From: a virus
Length of the DNA: 24,980 nt
IMG/VR virus record: IMGVR_UViG_3300015171_000030
Coordinates: 1-24,980 of that record
Strand: one strand, 5' to 3'
Made by a program: the position numbers and the translations under genes. Every line of letters begins with the position of its first letter. The first letter of the stretch is position 1. Shown piece by piece: positions 1,752 through 24,573 of this stretch. The notes below the pieces were generated by a model. It ran no database searches. It saw only the letters and a list, made by a program, of their open reading frames with translations, and was not told the DNA's origin.

Positions 1752-4700
1752 CTACTGTGGCGTATAGTTGCCCTGACCGTTGACTCGTGCCTGGTGCGTC
1801 AACCGAACGGTGGTCGGAGTTCCTGCCGCCCACGAAGGCGTCACGATGACGCTGACGTTCGTGCTCGACACGGTGACCGTAGTAGTCGTGGTCAGCGTCG
1901 TGTAGGTAGTAGCATCGGAGATCGCACCGTCAGTTAGGTTCGTGAACGTCGTACAGACTGCAGTTACCGTACCGCTTCGATTAGACGCAGCCACGATCGT
2001 TATTCCAGATATCGTCGAGACGTGATGCGTGCCGTCGATGACTTCGATAGTCCAGAAGACTTCGCATCCGACGCCGGTATCGGTAACGGCGTTAGTCAAG
2101 ATTGCGAACGTAGTTGGTGTCGCCGTAGTCGTGCTCAGGCTCTTGGTCTTAGATGAAATGCGGAACCGGTCATATATGGTCTGAGCAGTCGATCCCGATG
2201 CGAGGATGAAGCCGGTCTGCATCACGATGTCTGAAGTGGCGGTTCCCGTGCAGGCTCCAGACGTGATCGTCACACCGCCCGATGCCTTGTTGGTGCCGAC
2301 CCCTGCACCACCCTTGAACGATGCGAGACCGCCGGCACCAGCTACTCCAGCGCCGCCGATGACGTTGACCGCACCGCCGGTGCCTGTTCCGCCTGCCACG
2401 CCGCCGGTGAGGGATGCAGCGCCACCAGCACCGGAACCTTGGCCTGCCCCGGCGACGGCGACGAACGTTCCACCGGCACCGTTCGAGAGTCCAGCACCAG
2501 AAGTAAGCGTAAGCGTATTGCCAGTGGTGCCTGCCGTCAGGCCAGCCGTGAAGAACAGACCAGCATCGGTAGGCCCTAGAACTTGAGGAGTACCGGCTGC
2601 GTAAGTGCCACCAGTACCAAATGCGATGCCGTCGGCCGTGGTCGCAGCAGAACGGAAGTTGATTCCCTTTGCTGCCGTGATATTGATAGTTCCGCAGCCG
2701 ATGGTAGCAGTTGCATCGCCAAGACCGCCATTACCAAAGTTGAGTGCCGCAGCCCCATTCCAAGATATGCCGCTGTTAGGTGATGTGGTTGCTACTGCGT
2801 TGACGAAACCTAGCACAGCATCACTTACGATCGTCACGGCAGAGCCGCAGACTGCAAAAGGATATGCCGCCGCACCTCCGATGACGACATTGAGTGAAGC
2901 ACTTGCGATGTAGAAGTCCTGGTCGCTAGGGCCAAGGAGATGCACGGGACTAGTTCCTAGACCCGACTGCCACTGCAACGATCCAGTATTGGTAAGCGTG
3001 ATGAGTCCGACACTAGCGTTAGCTCCGCTTCCAGCTCCAGCTGTAAGTGGCCCCTTGAACGCGATTGTCGGCTGCGTGGCAGGAGTGCCTGTGCTGGCTC
3101 CCATGTCAATTACAACGCCGCCAGATGCGCGATCCGCACCAACGCCAGCACCACCGGTGATAGACGCAGCACCGCCGACACCGGCTACACCTGCTCCGCC
3201 AGCTATCGTAGCGGCTCCACCAGTACCAGTTGCTCCAGCAACGCCGCCGGTGAGTTGCGCTGCGCCACCATTGAGATTGCCATGGCCTGCACCACCCACA
3301 ACCTTAGACACGCCGCCCGTACCGTTGGTGCTGTTTGCTGCACCACCTATGAGTGAAGCTTGCCCACCAGTGCCAGTTGTGCCAGTACCAGATGCGCCAC
3401 CAGTTACGCCAATACCACCGGTTACTTGAGCAGCACCGCCAGTGCCGGTCGAGTTCGAGCCAACTGATGCAGTTCCACCAGTCAACTTAGCAGCACCGCC
3501 GTTATTGGATGAGTTGGAAACTGTAATTGCGCCACCAACCAGTGATGCAATACCGCCATTGCCGGAAGTTGCTCCGCCGTCACCGGCTGTCCAAGTAACT
3601 GCTCCAGCAGTTCCAGTGTCAGACTGTCCAGCCTTACCAGTTATCGAACCGGCGGCAGTAGAACTAACCGACTGCAATGCTGCCGCAGCGATAGTGAACT
3701 GTGTGTTATCAATGGTTAGAACTGCAACAGGGGTGTTGACTCCAGTTCCAGTTGCAGCCACAACAGGAATCTTGAAGAGGATCTGGGTCGCAGCACCAGC
3801 ACCAGTTGATGCACCAGTCGAGATTACAACGCCACCACCTGAAACGTCAGTTCCTGCGCCAGATGCACCGCCGGTGAGTTGGGCGGCACCGCCTACTCCA
3901 GTGCCTTGCCCAGCGCCAGCTACGACCTTTGAGACACCGCCGAGTGCATTGGAAGCCGTCCCTGCTCCACCGATGAGCGAGGCGATTCCACCGTTACCTG
4001 ACGTACTCCCGCCAGCCCCAGCAGTCCATGTTACGGCTCCTGCCGTACCTGTAGCAGACTGCCCGGCAGTGCCAGCTATGCTGCCTCCGGCTACTGCGCT
4101 AACAGAAGCAAGACCAGCTGCAGCAATGGTGAACTGCGTATTGTCTAGAGAGAGAATCGTTACCGGGGTGTTTGAGCCAGTACCGGAAGCTAGGCTCTTA
4201 GCTATCTTGAAGAGGATGCTCGGCGTAGATGAACCAGTTCCTGCTCCAGTTGAAACTACTACACCGCCGCTAGGCTTATTCGTGCCTACGCCAGCGCCAC
4301 CTGCAATCGTTACGAGTCCGCCATAATCGGCAGTTGCTGCACCGCCAGTTATGTTAACTGCACCGCCTGGCGTAGGTGTGCCCGTGTTGGTTCCCAGTCC
4401 GCCAGTTACATTGGCCGCGCCTCCACCATTACTAACGTTGTTAGACGCTCCACCAGTGAGTGAAGCTGTACCGCCGACACCTAGAACGGCTCCTGCCCCT
4501 GCTGCAAGAATTAGGTTGCCGCCAGTTACGCTGACTCCACCACCAGACGTTGCTAGGCCAGCAGTAATAGTAAGCGCGTTTCCATTTGAATCAGTCGCTG
4601 CTGCCGTTGAAACTATCCAAGCACTTTGGTCGGCAGGGAAGAGAATCTGAGGTACAGATACGGAGTAAGTTCCGCCAGTCGTCCAAGTCAATCTGCCAGA

Positions 4701-5123
4701 TGCAGCAACACTATTGACTACGTTACCAGCATTGACTACGGCCCCGAGGGTAGGCGTAGCACCACCAGCAGATGCCCACGACAGTACGCCCGTTCCAGCA
4801 GCATCAGTCAATACCGTTCCAGCTGCACCGACGGCAGCAGGTAGCGTGTAGGTAGGAGTTCCTGCTATCGAGGGAACGGTGATGACCGCGTGGCCGCTCG
4901 TTGTTCCATAGATGTGGATCGCACCGGTCGTGCCTGCCGCTCCGAGGATGATGGTGCCTGTAGCTCCGGCGGCCTGGCCGAGACCGAGCGAACCGAACTG
5001 GACTGCGGAGCCAGTCGCGATGCTCTGCGGGAGTGAAAGCGTAACAGGGCCTACCGCCGCACTAGCGATAACTTGATTAGATGTTCCAGTAATCGAGTCT
5101 ACGCCGTGTGTAATGTTACGCAT
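1752..5123 (-). CDS. Giant Gly/Ala/Thr-rich repeat tail fibre protein
   Basis: This 1123-residue protein is very rich in Gly, Ala, Thr, Ser and Val. Residues ~1-160 form a less repetitive N-terminal part. Residues ~195-675 and ~890-970 consist of many short GGxxxxTGGxG-type units such as GGAAQLTGG and GGAVNITGG. A larger module of about 145 residues appears at ~288-390 and ~432-535, each copy containing LDNTQFTIAAA or IDNTQFTIAAA and TGTAGAVTWTAG; a degenerate third copy begins near 669. A motif of the type PQ(I/V)L.P.D is repeated near 158 and ~870. Residues ~985-1123 lack the repeats and may be a tip domain. The regular Gly pairs suggest a beta-helix, beta-roll or polyglycine-II fibre rather than collagen, since there is no G-X-Y register. 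A start signal AAGGAG lies 7 bases before ATG. Its base composition is richer in G+C than both neighbours. A receptor-contacting fibre is inferred. Confidence 0.75.
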   Translation of the reverse strand: MRNITHGVDSITGTSNQVIASAAVGPVTLSLPQSIATGSAVQFGSLGLGQAAGATGTIILGAAGTTGAIHIYGTTSGHAVITVPSIAGTPTYTLPAAVGAAGTVLTDAAGTGVLSWASAGGATPTLGAVVNAGNVVNSVAASGRLTWTTGGTYSVSVPQILFPADQSAWIVSTAAATDSNGNALTITAGLATSGGGVSVTGGNLILAAGAGAVLGVGGTASLTGGASNNVSNGGGAANVTGGLGTNTGTPTPGGAVNITGGAATADYGGLVTIAGGAGVGTNKPSGGVVVSTGAGTGSSTPSILFKIAKSLASGTGSNTPVTILSLDNTQFTIAAAGLASVSAVAGGSIAGTAGQSATGTAGAVTWTAGAGGSTSGNGGIASLIGGAGTASNALGGVSKVVAGAGQGTGVGGAAQLTGGASGAGTDVSGGGVVISTGASTGAGAATQILFKIPVVAATGTGVNTPVAVLTIDNTQFTIAAAALQSVSSTAAGSITGKAGQSDTGTAGAVTWTAGDGGATSGNGGIASLVGGAITVSNSSNNGGAAKLTGGTASVGSNSTGTGGAAQVTGGIGVTGGASGTGTTGTGGQASLIGGAANSTNGTGGVSKVVGGAGHGNLNGGAAQLTGGVAGATGTGGAATIAGGAGVAGVGGAASITGGAGVGADRASGGVVIDMGASTGTPATQPTIAFKGPLTAGAGSGANASVGLITLTNTGSLQWQSGLGTSPVHLLGPSDQDFYIASASLNVVIGGAAAYPFAVCGSAVTIVSDAVLGFVNAVATTSPNSGISWNGAAALNFGNGGLGDATATIGCGTINITAAKGINFRSAATTADGIAFGTGGTYAAGTPQVLGPTDAGLFFTAGLTAGTTGNTLTLTSGAGLSNGAGGTFVAVAGAGQGSGAGGAASLTGGVAGGTGTGGAVNVIGGAGVAGAGGLASFKGGAGVGTNKASGGVTITSGACTGTATSDIVMQTGFILASGSTAQTIYDRFRISSKTKSLSTTTATPTTFAILTNAVTDTGVGCEVFWTIEVIDGTHHVSTISGITIVAASNRSGTVTAVCTTFTNLTDGAISDATTYTTLTTTTTVTVSSTNVSVIVTPSWAAGTPTTVRLTHQARVNGQGNYTPQ

Positions 5124-14539: not shown

Positions 14540-14857
14540 CTACTTTACCTTTTGTTCAAGTAACGCTATCTTAGTCTTAAGTGAATTTATCTCATCGTGG
14601 TTTGTTGCAATAGTGGTAGCTTGAGCGGCCAGCATAGCATCAGTTCGCTTGCGGTCCTCTGCTATGCTTTTACGATCTTCTTCTATTCTTGTAATAGAAG
14701 TACTTAACTCGTCCAATTTCTTAAGGACAACCGAATTTGAATCAGAGTTAAGCTTTAGACCGCCACCACCCGCTAAAATAGCGATTAAGATAGCTGCAAC
14801 TGAAAAGTGTTCAGACTTTACTAATCGCTTGGTTGACGCTGTGATCTCATCAGCCAT
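14540..14857 (-). CDS. Membrane-anchored coiled-coil protein
   Basis: This 105-residue protein has one hydrophobic segment (VAAILIAILAGGG, ~20-32) followed by a long charged helix (LDELSTSITRIEEDRKSIAE, then HDEINSLKTKIALLEQKV) that should form a coiled coil. AGGAG lies 6 bases before the ATG. It sits immediately after the coat gene and its hairpin. Phage proteins of this shape include holin-like and spanin-like lysis proteins and internal virion proteins; the lack of a second membrane segment argues against class I or II holins. Tail or head genes are the only neighbours, so its role is unclear. Confidence 0.65.
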   Translation of the reverse strand: MADEITASTKRLVKSEHFSVAAILIAILAGGGGLKLNSDSNSVVLKKLDELSTSITRIEEDRKSIAEDRKRTDAMLAAQATTIATNHDEINSLKTKIALLEQKVK

Positions 14858-18032: not shown

Positions 18033-19889
18033 TCATTTACCTTGACCTCTCGTCTTATCAGATACTACTTGTTCCTTAGTAGTGTCTCTAGACTTTGCTT
18101 TTTCTGCTGCTGCATCCTTAGTTGGACTAGCTGACTGGTCAGCTAGTCCTCTTGCAGCACCGGCTCCTTGAGTCCCAGGAGGATTATCCGGTGTTTGAGC
18201 AGCAGCAATTCTTGCAAGGCGTTCAGCATGATCTGCCTTAGCCTTCTCAGCCTCACCTGGACCATATCCACGAAGCTTAGATGCTGTCCCAAGTGAAACC
18301 AAGCCATTTTCAAGATCCTGAACAATAGTATTTGAGTCAGTTGTCATGGCCTGAGCAGCATCGATCTCAGATCTAATCTTTTCCATGACTTCATTCGGAA
18401 TCTTATGTGCAAGAAGCCTAAAAGCAATCTGCTTTGCAATTTCCTTCTGATAAGTCGTTGAAGGAACAACGGGGAGTTGTTCGGCAAGTTCTTTTGCGGC
18501 CTTCCGACGCTCCTCGTCAGTTGTGAGCGAATAGTTGGTCGGATATTGGATTGTCGCGACATCGCTAGACCCTTCATATACTGACCAATAGTAAGCTATT
18601 CTTCGCTCCATCTTCTCAAGTTCATGCCCGATAACACTTAGTCCGTTCTCAAGGGCACTATTGTCTTGCATCTTTGACTCAGCCGATGCCTTAGCTGGAT
18701 CAAGTCTGCTGACACTAAGATGAACAAGTTCTCGGATCTCAGCCTTCATCGTAGCTTGCTTCTCCATAGAAGCTTTAAGCGGCTCAGATGATGGATGAAT
18801 AAATCCAGGTCTCTCAAGCCCGAATCCGTATCGCCGACCATAACTTACACCAGTACGAGCAGTTGGTGTAGTTGATGTAACAGCGGCTACTTGTTCGGCT
18901 TGTGCCTTAGCAACTTGACCTTGGAGATCGGCAGTTGGCACCGAGTTACTGAGAATGTTGTCTGTTTCACGAAGATGGTCTGATTGAACTCGCGTATCTC
19001 GCTGTTCAGTGTAAAATGGATAATTGGCCTTAACTGAGAAATCAACGTCACTTGAGGCCATGTTCATCATACAGATGCCGTAATCAGCAATATCGACCAT
19101 CATACTATGGTCAAGCTGACCGACTACGAATGGAATTTCTCTTAACAGAGTCTTAATTGGTTGGGCCATTGTCAACTCAATGCCATTGGCATCTATTGAT
19201 GTTCCGGCATGATTGTAATAAGAAACATACATATAGCCGTCATTTGGATCAATGTAAAGTAGTTTGAATTTCTCTGCCCAATTAAGTGGCAATCCAGAAA
19301 TCGGATCTATATTATGTGACCACTCTCTTAAGAGTAGTTGCCTAAATCTACGATTTTGGTATCCATCCATCCAAGTCCATGATCGAATATCTTCGGCCCA
19401 AAAGACTTGAAGATAAGGATGTTTGTTTCCTTTATCAGCAAGAGTTATACCTTCTAACGGAGGCATCTCACAATATACGCCAACCTTACCTTTTACAAGA
19501 AGTTCACAAAGAACTTCTCGCGAAAGAAAGCCATTCATAGTAGAATCAAGCAAATCTACTCCACCTAATTCTCCGCGAGATGCTCTCTTAAATGTATCTG
19601 GCCCACCAGTTCTAGTCACGTCGCACATTCTTTGCGCAACGGCATATTTTATTTCGTCCAGTGCTTGCTTAGGAAAAGCAGGCACGTAAGTCATCTCTTT
19701 TCGCGAATTAAAATCTGCTAAGTCTTCGCGAATTGAGAACTGTTTTAAGTATCGATTAATCATTGGCAGTCCGCCACCATAGACAATACGATACTTCTCC
19801 CAAAGTATCATAGAGTCTAGAGTTTCAGGGTGCGTAACCGCATCAATACTACGCGGCAATGTATCAGGCATCCCTGCTAGGCTTACCAT
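18033..19889 (-). CDS. Portal protein
   Basis: This 618-residue protein forms, by inference, the dodecameric ring for DNA entry. Its size and place between terminase and scaffold fit. The N-terminal part (SMILWEKYRIVYGGGLPMIN; YAVAQRMCDVTR) and the central PYLQVFWAEDIRSWTWMD (~158-175) resemble DUF4055-type portals by eye. The segment VGQLDHSMMVDIADYGICMM (~253-272) is the stem-like helix region, and HELEKMERRIAYYW (~424-437) a crown-side helix. The C-terminus is charged, low-complexity and disordered (KDAAAEKAKSRDTTKEQ), with an intragenic hairpin in its DNA. ATG abuts the TAA of the HNH gene, so translation is likely coupled. An internal start at Met7 cannot be excluded. Confidence 0.85.
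   Translation of the reverse strand: MVSLAGMPDTLPRSIDAVTHPETLDSMILWEKYRIVYGGGLPMINRYLKQFSIREDLADFNSRKEMTYVPAFPKQALDEIKYAVAQRMCDVTRTGGPDTFKRASRGELGGVDLLDSTMNGFLSREVLCELLVKGKVGVYCEMPPLEGITLADKGNKHPYLQVFWAEDIRSWTWMDGYQNRRFRQLLLREWSHNIDPISGLPLNWAEKFKLLYIDPNDGYMYVSYYNHAGTSIDANGIELTMAQPIKTLLREIPFVVGQLDHSMMVDIADYGICMMNMASSDVDFSVKANYPFYTEQRDTRVQSDHLRETDNILSNSVPTADLQGQVAKAQAEQVAAVTSTTPTARTGVSYGRRYGFGLERPGFIHPSSEPLKASMEKQATMKAEIRELVHLSVSRLDPAKASAESKMQDNSALENGLSVIGHELEKMERRIAYYWSVYEGSSDVATIQYPTNYSLTTDEERRKAAKELAEQLPVVPSTTYQKEIAKQIAFRLLAHKIPNEVMEKIRSEIDAAQAMTTDSNTIVQDLENGLVSLGTASKLRGYGPGEAEKAKADHAERLARIAAAQTPDNPPGTQGAGAARGLADQSASPTKDAAAEKAKSRDTTKEQVVSDKTRGQGK
18124..18149 (-). other. Intragenic stem-loop near portal 3' end
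   Basis: An 11-bp perfect stem (18124-18134 with 18139-18149) closes a four-base loop inside the codons for the disordered portal tail. It has no T-run. It could be incidental or influence translation or stability of the mRNA. Confidence 0.45.
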
Positions 19890-20369
19890 TTAATCTTTAC
19901 TCCGAACACAATTATAGGTTATTTCCATTTGCCTACGTGCAGCTTCTGCTTCTTCTTGATTATCGAATCTCTTTGTGTATCTCTCACGACCTATTTTAAG
20001 CGAAGCCTTCCACTTATTTCTTTCAGAGTCATAAATTACACCAGGGTATCCTGATGTGTTATTCTTAGGTATTCCTCTATTAATTTGATTAAATGTATGG
20101 GTAACAATCTTAAGATTAGTTTCTTGATTGTCTAGTCCATTGCGATTATAGTGGTCTATTTCATATCCTTTAGGGATTAATTTACCAGCAAGTCTTATTA
20201 CTTCATAGTGCATAAATAAATGGGAACTAATTCTAGAAGACCCTGAACCAGTATGAAATGAATTAGAGACATACTTACCATTTACGTGCCAAGTATATTT
20301 GATTAACTCATCATAATATTTATCATCTACTAAAGCAAATTCGCCTTTAGTAAGTGCAATCTGCCTCAT
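19890..20369 (-). CDS. HNH homing endonuclease with AP2 DNA-binding domain
   Basis: This 159-residue protein has the standard layout of a free-standing phage HNH endonuclease: N-terminal domain (MRQIALTKGEFALVDDKYYD), HNH core YEIDHYNRNGLDNQETNLKI (~69-88) with the metal-binding His and Asn, and an AP2-type DNA-binding domain (NTSGYPGVIYDSERNKWKAS, ~104-123, through FDNQEEAEAARRQ). It nicks or cuts DNA near its insertion site and spreads by gene conversion; it could also assist packaging when next to terminase, as seen for some HNH proteins. It lies between the Cys-rich mini-gene and the portal, its stop touching the portal start. A partial paralogue lies at 20903-21049. Confidence 0.9.
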   Translation of the reverse strand: MRQIALTKGEFALVDDKYYDELIKYTWHVNGKYVSNSFHTGSGSSRISSHLFMHYEVIRLAGKLIPKGYEIDHYNRNGLDNQETNLKIVTHTFNQINRGIPKNNTSGYPGVIYDSERNKWKASLKIGRERYTKRFDNQEEAEAARRQMEITYNCVRSKD

Positions 20370-20469
20370 TGTCGACTATCTCCGCAAACCAGTAACGAAA
20401 TGCACATTCGCGACAACAAAATACTCGTCTACACGGTCTATCGCACGCCCAACATCTTTTAAGCAACAT
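20347..20469 (-). CDS. Cys-rich 40-residue mini-protein
   Basis: This 40-residue ORF is open from an ATG 3 bases after the lipoprotein stop to a TAA 23 bases inside the HNH gene. Its residues 6-22 have the pattern C-x2-C-x3-C-x5-CC-x2-C (CWACDRPCRRVFCCREC), which looks like a zinc-ribbon or 'treble clef' knuckle pair. The rest is FRYWFAEIVDNEADCTY. No strong ribosome site precedes it, so termination-reinitiation from the lipoprotein stop is the likely mode of translation. Small zinc-knuckle proteins occur in many phages and plasmids, often without known role. It may be DNA- or RNA-binding. Confidence 0.55.
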   Translation of the reverse strand: MLLKRCWACDRPCRRVFCCRECAFRYWFAEIVDNEADCTY

Positions 20470-20472
20470 AAA

Positions 20473-20820
20473 TCACTTAGGCCAAGGGGCTATTGTTCCC
20501 TGAGGATAGTAGATGTGGAATACTTCAGAATCCCGATACTCAGGAGAAGACCACACACGACCAAACTGACCGAAAGCAAGTGCATCAACTTGGAAACCAT
20601 CCGGAAAACCATGAGTATCAAATAATCCAACGCCTTGACTTGGGATAGTCTGTTGCTCTGAGCCGCTGATACTTGATCCGTGCCACCAAGTTACTGTTAC
20701 ACTTGCCGGATAACCTATATCTTGGTTATGCACGGCCACATCAAAGTGATGACTATGTGGCCTGTAGCTAGGATTTGGCCCGCAAGCTGTTAGGAGAAGT
20801 AGTAAGATGAGCCATTTCAC
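20473..20820 (-). CDS. Phage-encoded lipoprotein
   Basis: This 115-residue protein starts with GTG, with GGGAGG five bases upstream. It has a short lipoprotein signal (MKWLILLLLLTACGPNPSYR): Lys2, a Leu-rich core and lipobox L-T-A-C with Cys13 as the probable lipidation site. The mature ~103 residues are Pro/Gly/His/Tyr-rich and strand-like (VTVTWWHGSSISG, FHIYYPQGTIAPWPK). Known lipoproteins in phages include outer spanins and superinfection exclusion proteins (T5 Llp type). It is larger than typical outer spanins and has no Pro-rich linker like Rz1. The start overlaps the end of the 29-residue membrane peptide (GTGA). Exclusion or envelope modification is a hypothesis. Confidence 0.75.
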   Translation of the reverse strand: MKWLILLLLLTACGPNPSYRPHSHHFDVAVHNQDIGYPASVTVTWWHGSSISGSEQQTIPSQGVGLFDTHGFPDGFQVDALAFGQFGRVWSSPEYRDSEVFHIYYPQGTIAPWPK

Positions 20821-20906
20821 GTATTCCTCCCAAACATGAATCCTAAGACAAATGCAACTAATCCAGTTAGAACCATATAAGTGATAGCATCAATGAACTG
20901 GATCAT
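20817..20906 (-). CDS. 29-residue membrane peptide
   Basis: This very short ORF encodes 29 residues with one hydrophobic segment (ITYMVLTGLVAFVLGFMFG, ~8-26) and a polar end GRNT. Its ATG overlaps the TGA of the 48-residue ORF (ATGA), and its TGA overlaps the GTG of the lipoprotein (GTGA). Double coupling and a membrane composition over the entire length support a real gene. A partner of the lipoprotein, a small holin-type peptide or a membrane-stress peptide are all possible. Confidence 0.6.
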   Translation of the reverse strand: MIQFIDAITYMVLTGLVAFVLGFMFGRNT

Positions 20907-21049
20907 TTAGTCACTTGACAGTATTCAGAAACTCCATAAGTTCTAATACGGTAACCAAGATCAAAACGCCACTCATACTGATTTAGTTCATCAAAATACT
21001 TATCATCAACAAGGGCGCGTTTTCCTTGTGTTAGAATTATCTCACGCAT
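20903..21049 (-). CDS. HNH-endonuclease N-terminal domain fragment
   Basis: This 48-residue ORF starts one base after the large terminase stop (TAACATG). Its first 28 residues match the N-terminus of the nearby HNH endonuclease: MR(E/Q)I.LT(Q/K)G..ALVDDKY(F/Y)DEL..Y.W. After that it diverges (RFDLGYRIRTYGVSEYCQVTK) and stops, so the HNH core and AP2 domain are missing. Synonymous positions are largely different from the complete gene, so the copy is old, yet the frame is intact. It may be a decayed homing endonuclease or a retained small domain. Its stop overlaps the start of the membrane peptide. Confidence 0.65.
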   Translation of the reverse strand: MREIILTQGKRALVDDKYFDELNQYEWRFDLGYRIRTYGVSEYCQVTK

Positions 21050-21050
21050 G

Positions 21051-22718
21051 TTAAAAGACCTTCTCTCCAACATTCTCGTTACTCTGCATTCCGGCAGCGA
21101 ATACTAGAGCAATTTCACTATAAATACGTGCATGAGCCTGATGGTCCTGCTTATTATTTGCTGTTACGTAGTGATTAATTGGATTACCTGAGGAGTCTTT
21201 AGATGGCACTCTTACTATATTTTTTAGATGTTCGACGTATTCAAAGCCTATATTCTTTGGAATGGAGATGGTTTTCTGACGAAATCGACCTAGAGCCTGA
21301 TCAGCCCAGCTAGTTCGGTCTACCTTAACAATTGGTTCAGGCGAGTTAGCATCGACTTGACATTGCTTACCACTTAGTCCAACAACATAGATACAGAGGC
21401 GTACATATCCCATAAATCGCTGACTGAATTGATAAGCTGAGCGCCTATCTGGATGACAATCGATTACTGCCGACATAACTCGCCACTCACGCATAAGTGC
21501 ATCTAATTCATGCATATCTGCGCTTACCGGGATACCACCTGCATCTAAAACCTTAGCATGTGCAGTAGAATGGATGTCGTTGCCACGATACGCAGCTAAA
21601 GTCCACTCTACAACCTCATAATGACACTTACGACCTACGTCAATCCCAAGAGTTATGATCTTACCGCCCTTACGCGGGCACCTAGTAAGAAAGTCTCCCT
21701 TACAAGCTTGAATCATTTCATCTGAGATGCGTGCCCCAGCGACCTCGTGAGGCATACCCATCTTAGAATTGAAATACTCCTGCTCATCAGCTTCAGAAAC
21801 CTTAGCCCTTAAAAATGATGCCGCAATGTGTCCTGGTTTGATGGTAGTTGAGTAGCACTGGTTAATATAAAAAGTGCGTTTTGCTTTATCTGTGACACTT
21901 GGAACCCATTTACCGTGTCTTAACCACTCACTTTTAGTCTCATGATTAAGTTTGGCATTGCACTCTTTGCACTTTAGGTAAGAATCCATCACTAAAGTGG
22001 AGTCGGGGTCGTCGCCAATCACTTCTAAGCAATCGGCAGTTAATTCTGTTTGGCGGCTACAAGCTGGGCAAGGAAAGAAGAAGTGTTCCTGAGAACCTTC
22101 TCGATATTCCTTATTTATTCCCATATTATTCAGGACTGGCGTGGATGCCATCCATAACAGTTTTTCCTTTTGACCGCTCAAACGTTCCTTGGCAAGTGGA
22201 ACGTGATGCTGGTTCATTTCCTCAAGTTCATCGAGGATTACAACGGCAACCGGTATAGACTTAAGACCGGCGCGTGATTGGCTGCCGCGAATGTAGAAGT
22301 TTGCTCGTCCAGCTCGCTTGTGCCCAACGTTCTTAACATCAGAATACAGGCGAGTGAGGTGTGGAGAAAACTCAATAGCTGGATCGAAACGCGCAGCAGA
22401 GAATTGGCTAGCATCAGGAGTCTGATTAGGAAGGACGTAGAGAACATCACGTCCGAGAACATCATTATTGAACATACCAATGTTCAATAACATTTCAGAG
22501 ACTCCAAGCTGCGCGCCCTTTTGGGCTGCGTTTTCTTCAGCTTTAGAGTCTGCCATCTCACGGAGCCATGGGAAACGGTCGTGGCTCCAGGCGACTAAGT
22601 TGGCATCTTCCTTCATTATGCGACACGTCTCGGCCCATCTGGAACATGTAGTCAGGGATTGACGGACGAGTCCGGCTGAGAGTCTTTTGCGGAAATAATC
22701 TTCAAGAGACTCGCTCAT
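21051..22718 (-). CDS. Terminase large subunit, GpA family
   Basis: This 555-residue ATPase-nuclease packages phage DNA. The Walker A-like segment is at ~66-75 (QKGAQLGVSE), as in GpA-type terminases, with Walker B VAVVILDELEEM at ~157-168 and a coupling motif ASTP at ~191-194. Two CxxC pairs (C217/C220, C250/C253) form the zinc knuckle of this family. The nuclease domain begins IITLGIDVG at ~354-362, where the Asp is the first catalytic residue, followed by VIDCHPD near 415. C-terminal residues HQAHARIY contain conserved His residues. Length is slightly below the lambda protein (641). It is preceded 21 bases upstream by the DUF6527-like gene and followed after one base by the HNH fragment. 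Confidence 0.93.
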   Translation of the reverse strand: MSESLEDYFRKRLSAGLVRQSLTTCSRWAETCRIMKEDANLVAWSHDRFPWLREMADSKAEENAAQKGAQLGVSEMLLNIGMFNNDVLGRDVLYVLPNQTPDASQFSAARFDPAIEFSPHLTRLYSDVKNVGHKRAGRANFYIRGSQSRAGLKSIPVAVVILDELEEMNQHHVPLAKERLSGQKEKLLWMASTPVLNNMGINKEYREGSQEHFFFPCPACSRQTELTADCLEVIGDDPDSTLVMDSYLKCKECNAKLNHETKSEWLRHGKWVPSVTDKAKRTFYINQCYSTTIKPGHIAASFLRAKVSEADEQEYFNSKMGMPHEVAGARISDEMIQACKGDFLTRCPRKGGKIITLGIDVGRKCHYEVVEWTLAAYRGNDIHSTAHAKVLDAGGIPVSADMHELDALMREWRVMSAVIDCHPDRRSAYQFSQRFMGYVRLCIYVVGLSGKQCQVDANSPEPIVKVDRTSWADQALGRFRQKTISIPKNIGFEYVEHLKNIVRVPSKDSSGNPINHYVTANNKQDHQAHARIYSEIALVFAAGMQSNENVGEKVF

Positions 22719-22739: not shown

Positions 22740-23006
22740 TTAACAGTAGATTATTTGACCATTCTTGATGAAAAAGTGAGCACATTTTGTTAAAATTGAA
22801 GGATTAAGTGTTAAATCGTCCATATTTGTTCCATTAGGTGTCCAGCGACCAGGCGGTAAGATGTCTTTAGGAACTCCGACAAACCATAGCAGCCGTTCTT
22901 CTTGACCACAGGGGCACTCAATTATCACGCCCTGAGCATTAAGTCTTCTCTGACCGATTAGAGTATACTCACCTGTTAGACTCTGTAGTCTGATGAATTC
23001 GGCCAT
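22740..23006 (-). CDS. DUF6527-like small protein
   Basis: This 88-residue protein looks like the DUF6527 family found in phages and plasmids: CPCG near residues 31-34, followed by W, then GRWTPNG (~53-59), LTLNPSIL (~65-72) and C-H-F-F-I-K-N-G-Q-I at the end. The ordered Cys and His residues (C31, C33, C74, H76, C88) suggest metal binding. Function of the family is unknown. It overlaps the upstream membrane protein gene by 38 bases, a long overlap, and lies between it and the large terminase. Confidence 0.75.
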   Translation of the reverse strand: MAEFIRLQSLTGEYTLIGQRRLNAQGVIIECPCGQEERLLWFVGVPKDILPPGRWTPNGTNMDDLTLNPSILTKCAHFFIKNGQIIYC

Positions 23007-23232
23007 GGATCACCAGTCCTAGGTAAGTGCCTAGTGCTCCACCTAATGCATAAGCCACGACACCGGCCATTGAATTCTGTTCTTGTGTGACAACCCACAC
23101 ATAGTAGCCAAAAGTAGTAAGTATGCCGGAGATCATCGCAGCAAGTCCGGGCCGCTTGGCTGCAACGGCCCGAAGATAAAATGCACAGAGTATATCATGC
23201 ATCAAACCGAGGATAAATACTATGGCCAGCAT
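22969..23232 (-). CDS. Small membrane protein, DUF5698-like
   Basis: This 87-residue protein has three hydrophobic segments (~2-22, 30-48, 56-76) connected by short loops, with GGALGTYLGLVIHG at ~63-76. The layout resembles the short DUF5698/DUF2179-type membrane proteins that appear in many phages near packaging genes. The role is unknown; holin activity has been suggested only by topology. In frame, a TGA codon lies just upstream of ATG, so no longer start is possible. GGTGA sits close to the start as a weak ribosome site. It overlaps the DUF6527-like gene by 38 bases. Confidence 0.7.
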   Translation of the reverse strand: MLAIVFILGLMHDILCAFYLRAVAAKRPGLAAMISGILTTFGYYVWVVTQEQNSMAGVVAYALGGALGTYLGLVIHGRIHQTTESNR

Positions 23233-23243
23233 AAATCACCATG

Positions 23244-23417
23244 TTATTTCCTCGCAAAAATAATGTCTTTAGCCTCAGGGTTACTTAACATCATTGCTAA
23301 GTCACGTAATTTAGCAGAAATATTTTGGATATCTGGGTTGGGTCCACTTAATTCTGCAATGATGTCTCGCAACTCTAGCTTAATAGACCCCACCGTCTGT
23401 GTCAACTGATCCGGCAC
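23244..23417 (-). CDS. Hypothetical 57-residue helical protein
   Basis: This ORF starts with GTG, with a perfect GGAGG six bases upstream, inside the last codons of the secreted-protein gene, and ends 11 bases before the membrane-protein start. It fills an otherwise empty 150-base gap. The translation reads as an amphipathic helix-loop-helix: LTQTVGSIKLELRDIIAEL (5-23), then SGPNPDIQNISAKLRDLAMM and LSNPEAKDIIFARK. No family is recognised. A small DNA-binding or packaging accessory protein is possible. Evidence is the ribosome site, spacing and sensible composition. Confidence 0.7.
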   Translation of the reverse strand: MPDQLTQTVGSIKLELRDIIAELSGPNPDIQNISAKLRDLAMMLSNPEAKDIIFARK

Positions 23418-23838
23418 TTGGAGCCTCCACTATGATGGCAAAAGCATTGAAACCTTCAGCAGCGTAGACCACGGTATTTGATGTATAAAGTCCGCGAAGT
23501 TTTCCGATCAGCGCAGTGAAAGTGGTCACAGTCTGATCTTTAGGGAAGAAATTGACCCCATCAGTCCAGCCACGGACAAAGTGGACGACACAAGTTGCAC
23601 CAGAGTTAGTGAACTTGAGGCTCACTGCAACATTTTGACACTGATTTGGGTTAAGTAGAACAGGAATGGCTTTAGTAATAGAAGCATCATCAAGTGTCAC
23701 CGACGCTGTGTCAGCAACCGCGATAGAGCCTCTTAGTGTCTGCCACTGAATGGGTCGACTGACACTTGTAACATCACCAGCATAGGCCGATGCGCAACCT
23801 AGAAACAGTAAGCCAAGAATAACTGCACGTCTAATCAT
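23380..23838 (-). CDS. Secreted hypothetical protein
   Basis: This 152-residue protein begins with a clear signal peptide: MIRRAVILGLLFLGCASAYA, with likely cleavage after AYA at residue 20. A Cys at 15 (FLGC) is a non-standard lipobox, so signal peptidase I is more likely. The mature part is strand-rich, with SVTLDDASITKAIPVLL, NVAVSLKFTNSGATCVVHFV and AFAIIVEAPSAGS, and two Cys (~63 and ~78) that could form a disulfide. No known domain is recognised. Its start overlaps the small-terminase candidate by 8 bases and the 57-residue ORF starts inside its end. Export from the host cell is predicted; the role is unknown. Confidence 0.75.
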   Translation of the reverse strand: MIRRAVILGLLFLGCASAYAGDVTSVSRPIQWQTLRGSIAVADTASVTLDDASITKAIPVLLNPNQCQNVAVSLKFTNSGATCVVHFVRGWTDGVNFFPKDQTVTTFTALIGKLRGLYTSNTVVYAAEGFNAFAIIVEAPSAGSVDTDGGVY

Positions 23839-24463
23839 CGACCTCTATCCTCGCCGTTGTCACGGCTGCTATTTCACCCATGACCAGATTAGCAGCTTGT
23901 GCCATCTCGTCTTCATTTAAGAACTGAGCCATGATCTTGAGTATGCCATCACAGAGTTTCTGGATGGCTGCTCGATCCATGAGCATACCCATCTGAGATT
24001 CAAGCTTCTTGCAATCCATAACAATCTTATGGATGGCTTGAATATTAGCAAGGATTACCGACGAGTGAGCGATAAGATCATCAGCTTCTTCCCATCGATT
24101 AAGCTTAGTCTCAAGCAACATTCGCGTGATGCCAATTTCATCACGGAGCGTCAGAACCTTTGGATTGGTAGCAAAATCACTTACACGGGCTTTGTATTTG
24201 CTTAAGCGGTATTGTTCAAGTTCTTGCTTCTTAACAGATTTTTCAGTAATCATTCCGCCGTGCTTAACACAGTTTTCACTGTTTTGTGTTCGGTAAAAAT
24301 CACATTGTCCAAAGTGACTAGAGACTGATTGACATCTGTTTTTGTCTCCTGGATCAGTTACCCTTTTGAACTGATTCTCTGTATCGTAGACATATTCATC
24401 ATTACCATTAAGGTCATCATTACCATTAAGGTCATCATTACCATTAAGGTCATCATTACTCAT
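23831..24463 (-). CDS. Putative terminase small subunit
   Basis: The chosen ATG (24461-24463) gives 210 residues. An upstream ATG at 24580 is possible but would add 39 residues with no terminase character, and the promoter-like motifs lie there; AAAGGG precedes the chosen start. Residues 3-22 are three NDDLNG-type repeats. Residues 43-70 have C44, C54, C65 and H68 in the arrangement R-C-Q...G-Q-C...N-C-V-K-H-G-G seen in several small terminases and other phage DNA-binding proteins. Residues ~75-200 are long helices (TLRDEIGITRMLLETKLNRW; AAIQKLCDGILKIMAQFL), suited to oligomerisation. Gene position upstream of the large terminase supports packaging recognition. Confidence 0.65.
   Translation of the reverse strand: MSNDDLNGNDDLNGNDDLNGNDEYVYDTENQFKRVTDPGDKNRCQSVSSHFGQCDFYRTQNSENCVKHGGMITEKSVKKQELEQYRLSKYKARVSDFATNPKVLTLRDEIGITRMLLETKLNRWEEADDLIAHSSVILANIQAIHKIVMDCKKLESQMGMLMDRAAIQKLCDGILKIMAQFLNEDEMAQAANLVMGEIAAVTTARIEVDD
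24401..24454 (-). repeat. Three perfect 18-bp repeats
   Basis: Three identical head-to-tail copies of attaccattaaggtcatc encode an N-G-N-D-D-L repeat near the N-terminus of the small-terminase candidate, with partial copies at the edges. Gain or loss of a unit would keep the frame. Confidence 0.95.
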
Positions 24464-24573
24464 TTTTGGCCCTTTGTTGATGAGTGCTGGCTGCTTATTC
24501 CTGAACCCCGAATACAGAATACTACAAACCCAAATGAGAAAAGATTCTTTCGTGGCCCAAAAACTAGTAACCC

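Follow-up and report, generated by a model that had tools for sequence, protein, structure and literature searches.

In Skunavirus, a packaging HNH occupies the position between the genes for the large terminase (terL) and the portal in all 89 genomes, whereas the I-HmuI-like HNH endonucleases vary in presence and site (PMC12724721). The latter are free-standing proteins that combine an HNH_3 domain with an AP2-type DNA-binding part, occur in many copies per genome and are inserted without an intron between intact conserved genes; truncated remnants are common (56/268; PMC12724721). Superinfection exclusion by small lipoproteins has been established for Llp of phage T5 and for Rtp45, both of which contain a disulfide (Cys11-Cys58 in Llp, Cys30-Cys38 in Rtp45), and the Llp gene is adjacent to the pb5 receptor-binding gene (PMC9586334, PMC12685063). 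The locus described here shares the listed features of the free-standing I-HmuI-like endonucleases, but, unlike them, it has a Cys-rich ORF and the genes of a membrane peptide and an accessory lipoprotein placed between the remnant and the intact nuclease. It represents mostly a known kind of event, the insertion of a free-standing homing endonuclease accompanied by a decayed copy, in which the orphan cargo is unusual.

The DNA analysed (the window), a fragment of 24,980 bases, comes from an uncultured tailed phage and has all its recognised genes on the minus strand. Downstream from terL the order is 48-aa ORF, membrane peptide (29 aa), lipoprotein (115 aa), Cys-rich ORF (40 aa), complete HNH protein (159 aa) and portal (Table 1). 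The coordinates of the small ORFs and the bases at their four junctions, all on the minus strand, agree exactly with those of a preliminary description made from the sequence. The best overall explanation, to which we assign a probability of roughly 0.65, is an insertion in which a homing HNH was the moving part, beside a nuclease remnant and accessory genes, chiefly a lipoprotein.

Table 1. Features of the terL-portal region (positions in the window)
Feature	Position	Strand	Basis and remarks
terL (large terminase, gpA-type, 555 aa)	21051..22718	-	PF05876 4.2e-31; phrog_675 1.9e-77; left boundary of insertion
N-terminal remnant (48 aa) of second HNH homing endonuclease	20903..21049	-	similarity to N-terminus of full HNH
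Single-span membrane peptide (29 aa)	20817..20906	-	hydropathy, codon score, weak phrog_22548 E=0.001
Predicted lipoprotein (115 aa), GTG start, lipobox L-T-A-C13, orphan	20473..20820	-	lipobox scan; AlphaFold model
Cys-rich peptide (40 aa), CxxC-x8-CCxxC, putative zinc-knuckle	20347..20469	-	motif
Predicted intact free-standing HNH/AP2 homing-type endonuclease (159 aa; D72, H73, N94)	19890..20369	-	PF13392 1.9e-6; phrog_99 6.6e-29
Portal	18033..19889	-	phrog_145 4.5e-21; right boundary of insertion

Relatives were gathered with a terminase profile (A1, then A2); their terL proteins are 37-51% identical to that of the window and align with it over nearly the full length. Collapsing them at 90% nucleotide identity of terL yielded 77 clusters, one of which (L019) was left unscored because its portal was not detectable. 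The terL-portal interval contains at least one inserted ORF of at least 50 aa in 11 clusters and none in 65, where the gaps were judged from tblastn boundaries and read ORF by ORF only when longer than about 70 bp. In most relatives the portal start is overlapped or touched by the terL stop (e.g. TAGTG, ATGA). Since terL and portal are contiguous in most relatives, the 1,160 bp found in the window represent extra DNA at a gene boundary: the block of about 1.16 kb (about 19890-21050) is a lineage-specific insertion that left terL and portal intact. The accessory, moron-like character that the preliminary description had attributed to the unit is supported by its absence from the interval in those 65 of the 77 clusters.

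The different inserts in the other 11 clusters make the terL-portal junction an insertion hotspot in this phage group. They comprise a solitary HNH_3/AP2 gene that at its end runs into the start of the portal (L162), a lone GIY-YIG homing-type gene with a weak I-HmuI-NUMOD match (L113), structural-looking proteins together with a zinc-ribbon protein (L112/L114 and L096), a 324-aa protein (L151/L152), small ORFs (L088, L090, L097 and L130) and a 6.4-kb insert (L143), in which a holin-like protein (95 aa), the lipoprotein encoded after it (96 aa) and an HNH-like ORF were recognised by eye. The junction of a little-described phage group thus repeatedly gains accessory genes, among them homing-type endonucleases from two families. 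No relative carries the same cassette, and scans of viral contigs with the single proteins terL, lipoprotein, portal and HNH gave no matches. The capsid scan of viral contigs returned one 81% relative (L006), which ends before terL. A scan of genome contigs yielded one relative of the group, in an 8.5-kb contig of an Acetothermia MAG, which is too little to name a host.

The 159-aa protein (P0005) carries an HNH_3 domain (PF13392; 27.8 bits against a Pfam cutoff of 24.8) and the PHROG label HNH endonuclease, whereas the AP2 domain stays below the Pfam cutoff for this protein alone (16.5 against 33.3). A group profile of the protein and its relatives matched I-HmuI (1u3e) at 1.7e-7 and AP2 domain structures at 4.7e-17, and apart from these two it retrieved nothing among the PDB sequences, packaging HNH structures included. 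Residues D72, H73 and N94 fall within the stretch that the profile aligns to I-HmuI, and were matched by eye to D74, H75 and N96 of that enzyme. Four characteristics of HNH/AP2 homing endonucleases are present, namely HNH_3 with the D-H-N residues, a C-terminal AP2/NUMOD-type domain, variable presence and several sites in the relatives. On this basis the intact nuclease can be classed as an I-HmuI/AP2-type free-standing homing endonuclease and not as a packaging HNH, and presumably it homes. The complete HNH gene noticed in the preliminary description is thus confirmed as intact and of a homing type.

The HNH_3/AP2 copies number 10 in the related phage G029, 5 in G019 and 1 in G011; the ten genes of G029 (the 112-kb record of L097) include L178, L183, L186, L188, L190 and L192-L196 and amount to a heavy burden of homing-type endonucleases. 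The HNH of the window scores 250, 232 and 215 with copies located elsewhere in related phages versus 141 with the L162 copy, which in turn is nearest to a copy elsewhere in G029 (score 224). That both are nearer to copies elsewhere points to separate insertions; support in the HNH gene tree is mostly weak.

The 48-aa ORF and the N-terminus of the full HNH are identical at 18 of 33 residues and at about 61% of the nucleotides. The differences are distributed as 11/6/17 over the three positions of 29 codons and are thus dominated by third positions, a pattern that shows no more than past selection on the protein sequence. The best matches of the fragment elsewhere are the N-termini of HNH homing endonucleases. 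By these comparisons the ORF is the stump of a second, long-diverged homing endonuclease, cut off after about 38 residues, which is real as a relic whether translated or not. The low DNA identity of the two N-termini was the reason to discard a recent tandem duplication of the HNH.

The genes of the block are tightly coupled. The junction between terL and the fragment reads TAA-C-ATG, that between fragment and membrane peptide ATGA, that between membrane peptide and lipoprotein GTGA, and that between lipoprotein and Cys-rich ORF TGATTTATG; the Cys-rich ORF and the full HNH overlap by 23 nt, and the TAA of the HNH directly abuts the portal ATG. By eye, strong Shine-Dalgarno-like sequences were recognised in the last codons of terL for the 48-aa ORF (GGAGAGAAGG) and at the 3' end of the membrane peptide gene for the lipoprotein (GGGAGG). 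A GGAG ahead of the HNH and another one, inside the HNH, ahead of the portal are strong as well, while the sequences ahead of the membrane peptide and the Cys-rich ORF are weak (also by eye). The chain of same-strand ORFs spans 700 of 704 nt; dinucleotide shuffling, repeated 1000 times, gave a mean of 251 and never attained this value. By codon usage the fragment and the membrane peptide resemble coding sequences, their scores being reached by 0.6% and 1.3% of spurious ORFs, respectively. The lipoprotein is a marginal case (5%, from only 20 controls), and the Cys-rich ORF does not resemble coding sequence (59%).

In the signal of the lipoprotein, MKWLILLLLLTAC, the lipobox (LTA-C) is perfect and position +2 is Gly. 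Across 1.4 Mb of related loci, 0.2% of the ORFs of at least 45 aa carry a lipobox signal; in the window, the scan flagged no other ORF. The call is strong, and that the ORF is a real gene is hardly in doubt; it is the lipobox, taken by itself, that argues for a function in the envelope. The mature protein comprises 103 residues from Cys13, with no other cysteine and no second membrane span (maximum hydropathy 0.38). An AlphaFold model made from one sequence (pLDDT 70) has seven strands and predicts a beta-sandwich, for which the fold searches brought up nothing but generic beta-sandwiches (TM-scores of about 0.3-0.5); the T6SS lipoprotein TssJ/SciN was among them, at no useful significance, and was discarded. 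Searches for a homologue in phages, plasmids, 66 related records and PDB sequences, and with a degenerate DNA pattern, gave only chance-level matches, and a match in G021 (E=0.004) was dismissed as it concerns 43 residues of a 230-codon frame. The lipoprotein is an orphan and new, with a putative function, and it is offered here as a candidate for testing.

The two neighbouring peptides are less certain. The membrane peptide is almost entirely a hydrophobic span, the maximum 19-residue hydropathy of which (2.15) is matched by 5 of 110 spurious ORFs, and it is likely to be a real gene. For the Cys-rich ORF this is uncertain, at about even odds: its CxxC...CxxC motif is found in 0.14% of the ORFs of 30-60 aa, and no homologue was detected among Pfam, PHROG or the other sequences searched. 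Indeed, our searches found no homologue for any of the three small proteins. The GC content separates these genes from the nuclease genes. The block formed by membrane peptide, lipoprotein and Cys-rich ORF has a value of 0.445, close to terL (0.454), portal (0.440) and the window itself (within 0.44-0.46), whereas it is 0.333 for the HNH and 0.361 for the fragment. Given this sharp difference, and as no relative carries both, a joint spread of HNH and small genes, as suggested earlier, is no more than a possibility.

Other readings were weighed against these data. The HNH might be a terminase packaging cofactor of the HK97 gp74 or Skunavirus HrdP type and as such belong to the core packaging operon, the small genes being incidental. 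Its site between terL and portal is shared with HK97 gp74, the GVE2 HNH and HrdP, and is the exact position of the packaging HNHs in Skunavirus (PMC12724721). However, the packaging HNH is present in every member of the Skunavirus set, whereas nearly all relatives studied here have no HNH at this site, so that the HNH of the window, which is variable and not conserved next to terL throughout its phage group, behaves like the I-HmuI-like kind. It also belongs to another HNH family, HNH_3/AP2 with similarity to I-HmuI, and the profile search of PDB sequences revealed no similarity to the GVE2/gp74 family. A packaging role was rejected on distribution and is highly improbable. It is rather unlikely, too, that a single HNH gene was split by recombination, such that incoming small genes and a second HNH N-terminus entered a resident HNH, with the resident N-terminus left upstream and its C-terminus fused to the new N-terminus. 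The old, diverged paralogous N-termini at the two ends of the block and the lack of a separate C-terminal remnant would suit such an event, but the homologous stretch of only 33 aa is too short to test for discordant ancestry, and a plain second HNH insertion followed by decay accounts for the same facts. That the micro-ORFs are untranslated chance frames in decaying insertion DNA would explain their lack of homologues and the codon usage of the Cys-rich ORF; the near-complete tiling of one strand, the strong Shine-Dalgarno-like sequences before fragment, lipoprotein and HNH, the lipobox and the coding-like codon scores make it improbable.

With respect to the function of the small genes, membrane peptide and lipoprotein may form a superinfection-exclusion unit of the T5 Llp, Cor and Rtp45 type, in which the lipoprotein binds a host receptor from the periplasm and blocks adsorption. 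As in these systems, in which small phage lipoproteins are proven exclusion factors (PMC9586334, PMC12685063), the window encodes a small accessory lipoprotein with a perfect lipobox, which is predicted to be an exported beta protein. The exclusion role that the preliminary description considered is nevertheless weakened, as the protein shows no homology to the exclusion lipoproteins, is larger than their roughly 6-8 kDa mature forms, lacks the second cysteine required for an internal disulfide, and is encoded in the packaging operon and not, like Llp, beside a receptor-binding gene (PMC9586334). It is therefore not a member of the Llp/Rtp45 type, while it could still act similarly, and exclusion or receptor masking is a tentative possibility, well short of even odds. 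Lysis, by a small holin or antiholin or by a pair of inner- and outer-membrane spanins, is quite unlikely. The membrane gene lies directly upstream of the lipoprotein gene, side by side as in the two-component spanins (Rz/Rz1), and L143 encodes its holin-like protein and lipoprotein in that order between terL and portal. Yet an inner-membrane spanin has an N-terminal span and a periplasmic coiled coil, for which the 29 aa of the peptide are too few. The lipoprotein is devoid of a C-terminal membrane span and is predicted to fold as a beta-sandwich, and the proteins of L143, for which Pfam has no matching family, are unlike those of the window. Other envelope roles account for the remainder.

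In the preferred reading, insertion driven by a homing nuclease, the intact HNH/AP2 endonuclease is most likely the moving part of the block. In a mixed infection its target would be a competitor in which the terL-portal region is uninterrupted; repair of the resulting break from the insertion-bearing genome would copy the endonuclease and adjoining DNA (intronless homing). The 48-aa ORF is the leftover of an earlier or second homing endonuclease. Considering the AT-rich nuclease pieces and the backbone-like GC content of the middle block, the simplest reading is that two nuclease arrivals bracket small accessory genes of phage-like composition. The lipoprotein would be a late product, expressed alongside the head genes and destined for the cell envelope; the gene for the membrane peptide precedes it and its 3' end would supply the ribosome-binding site. 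The leading candidate role of the lipoprotein, held tentatively and well short of even odds, is to modify the envelope of the infected host, for example by masking a receptor against superinfection or loss of progeny. Should nuclease and small genes move together, homing endonucleases would be carriers of cargo that affects phage competition. A composite homing island, in which two related homing endonucleases bracket the envelope genes and phages with an empty terL-portal junction receive a copy of the entire block there, is doubtful; if true, it would provide phages with a nuclease-driven route to exchange anti-competitor envelope genes.

Several further observations concern the surroundings of the insertion. 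On the other side of terL, four small genes (88, 87, 57 and 152 aa; 22740-23838) are located between terL and a putative small terminase gene (23831-24460); one encodes a multi-span membrane protein and one a protein with a signal peptide or lipobox (MIRRAVILGLLFLGCASAYA). In L010, L012 and L014 terL and the small terminase gene are adjacent. Both flanks of terL seem to collect small, partly envelope-related genes. Unrelated lipoproteins near terL are encoded in L015 (4462-4989), L161 (100-564) and L172 (3781-4071), two of them upstream of terL and one between terL and portal. After the capsid gene of the window, a 105-aa protein (14540-14857) has one membrane span, a coiled coil and a weak match to Rz-like spanins (E 0.015), and L006 has an ORF of similar size after its capsid gene. 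In addition, the putative small terminase gene has, close to its start, an in-frame 18-bp tandem repeat (24404-24464) that repeats the residues DDLNGN, and the tail gene region contains a low-complexity, repetitive Gly/Ala/Thr-rich protein of 1123 aa (1752-5123). At the end of the contig (24900-24980), GGGAAAC/GGGAATC units are arrayed in tandem, which is the probable reason for the assembly stopping there.
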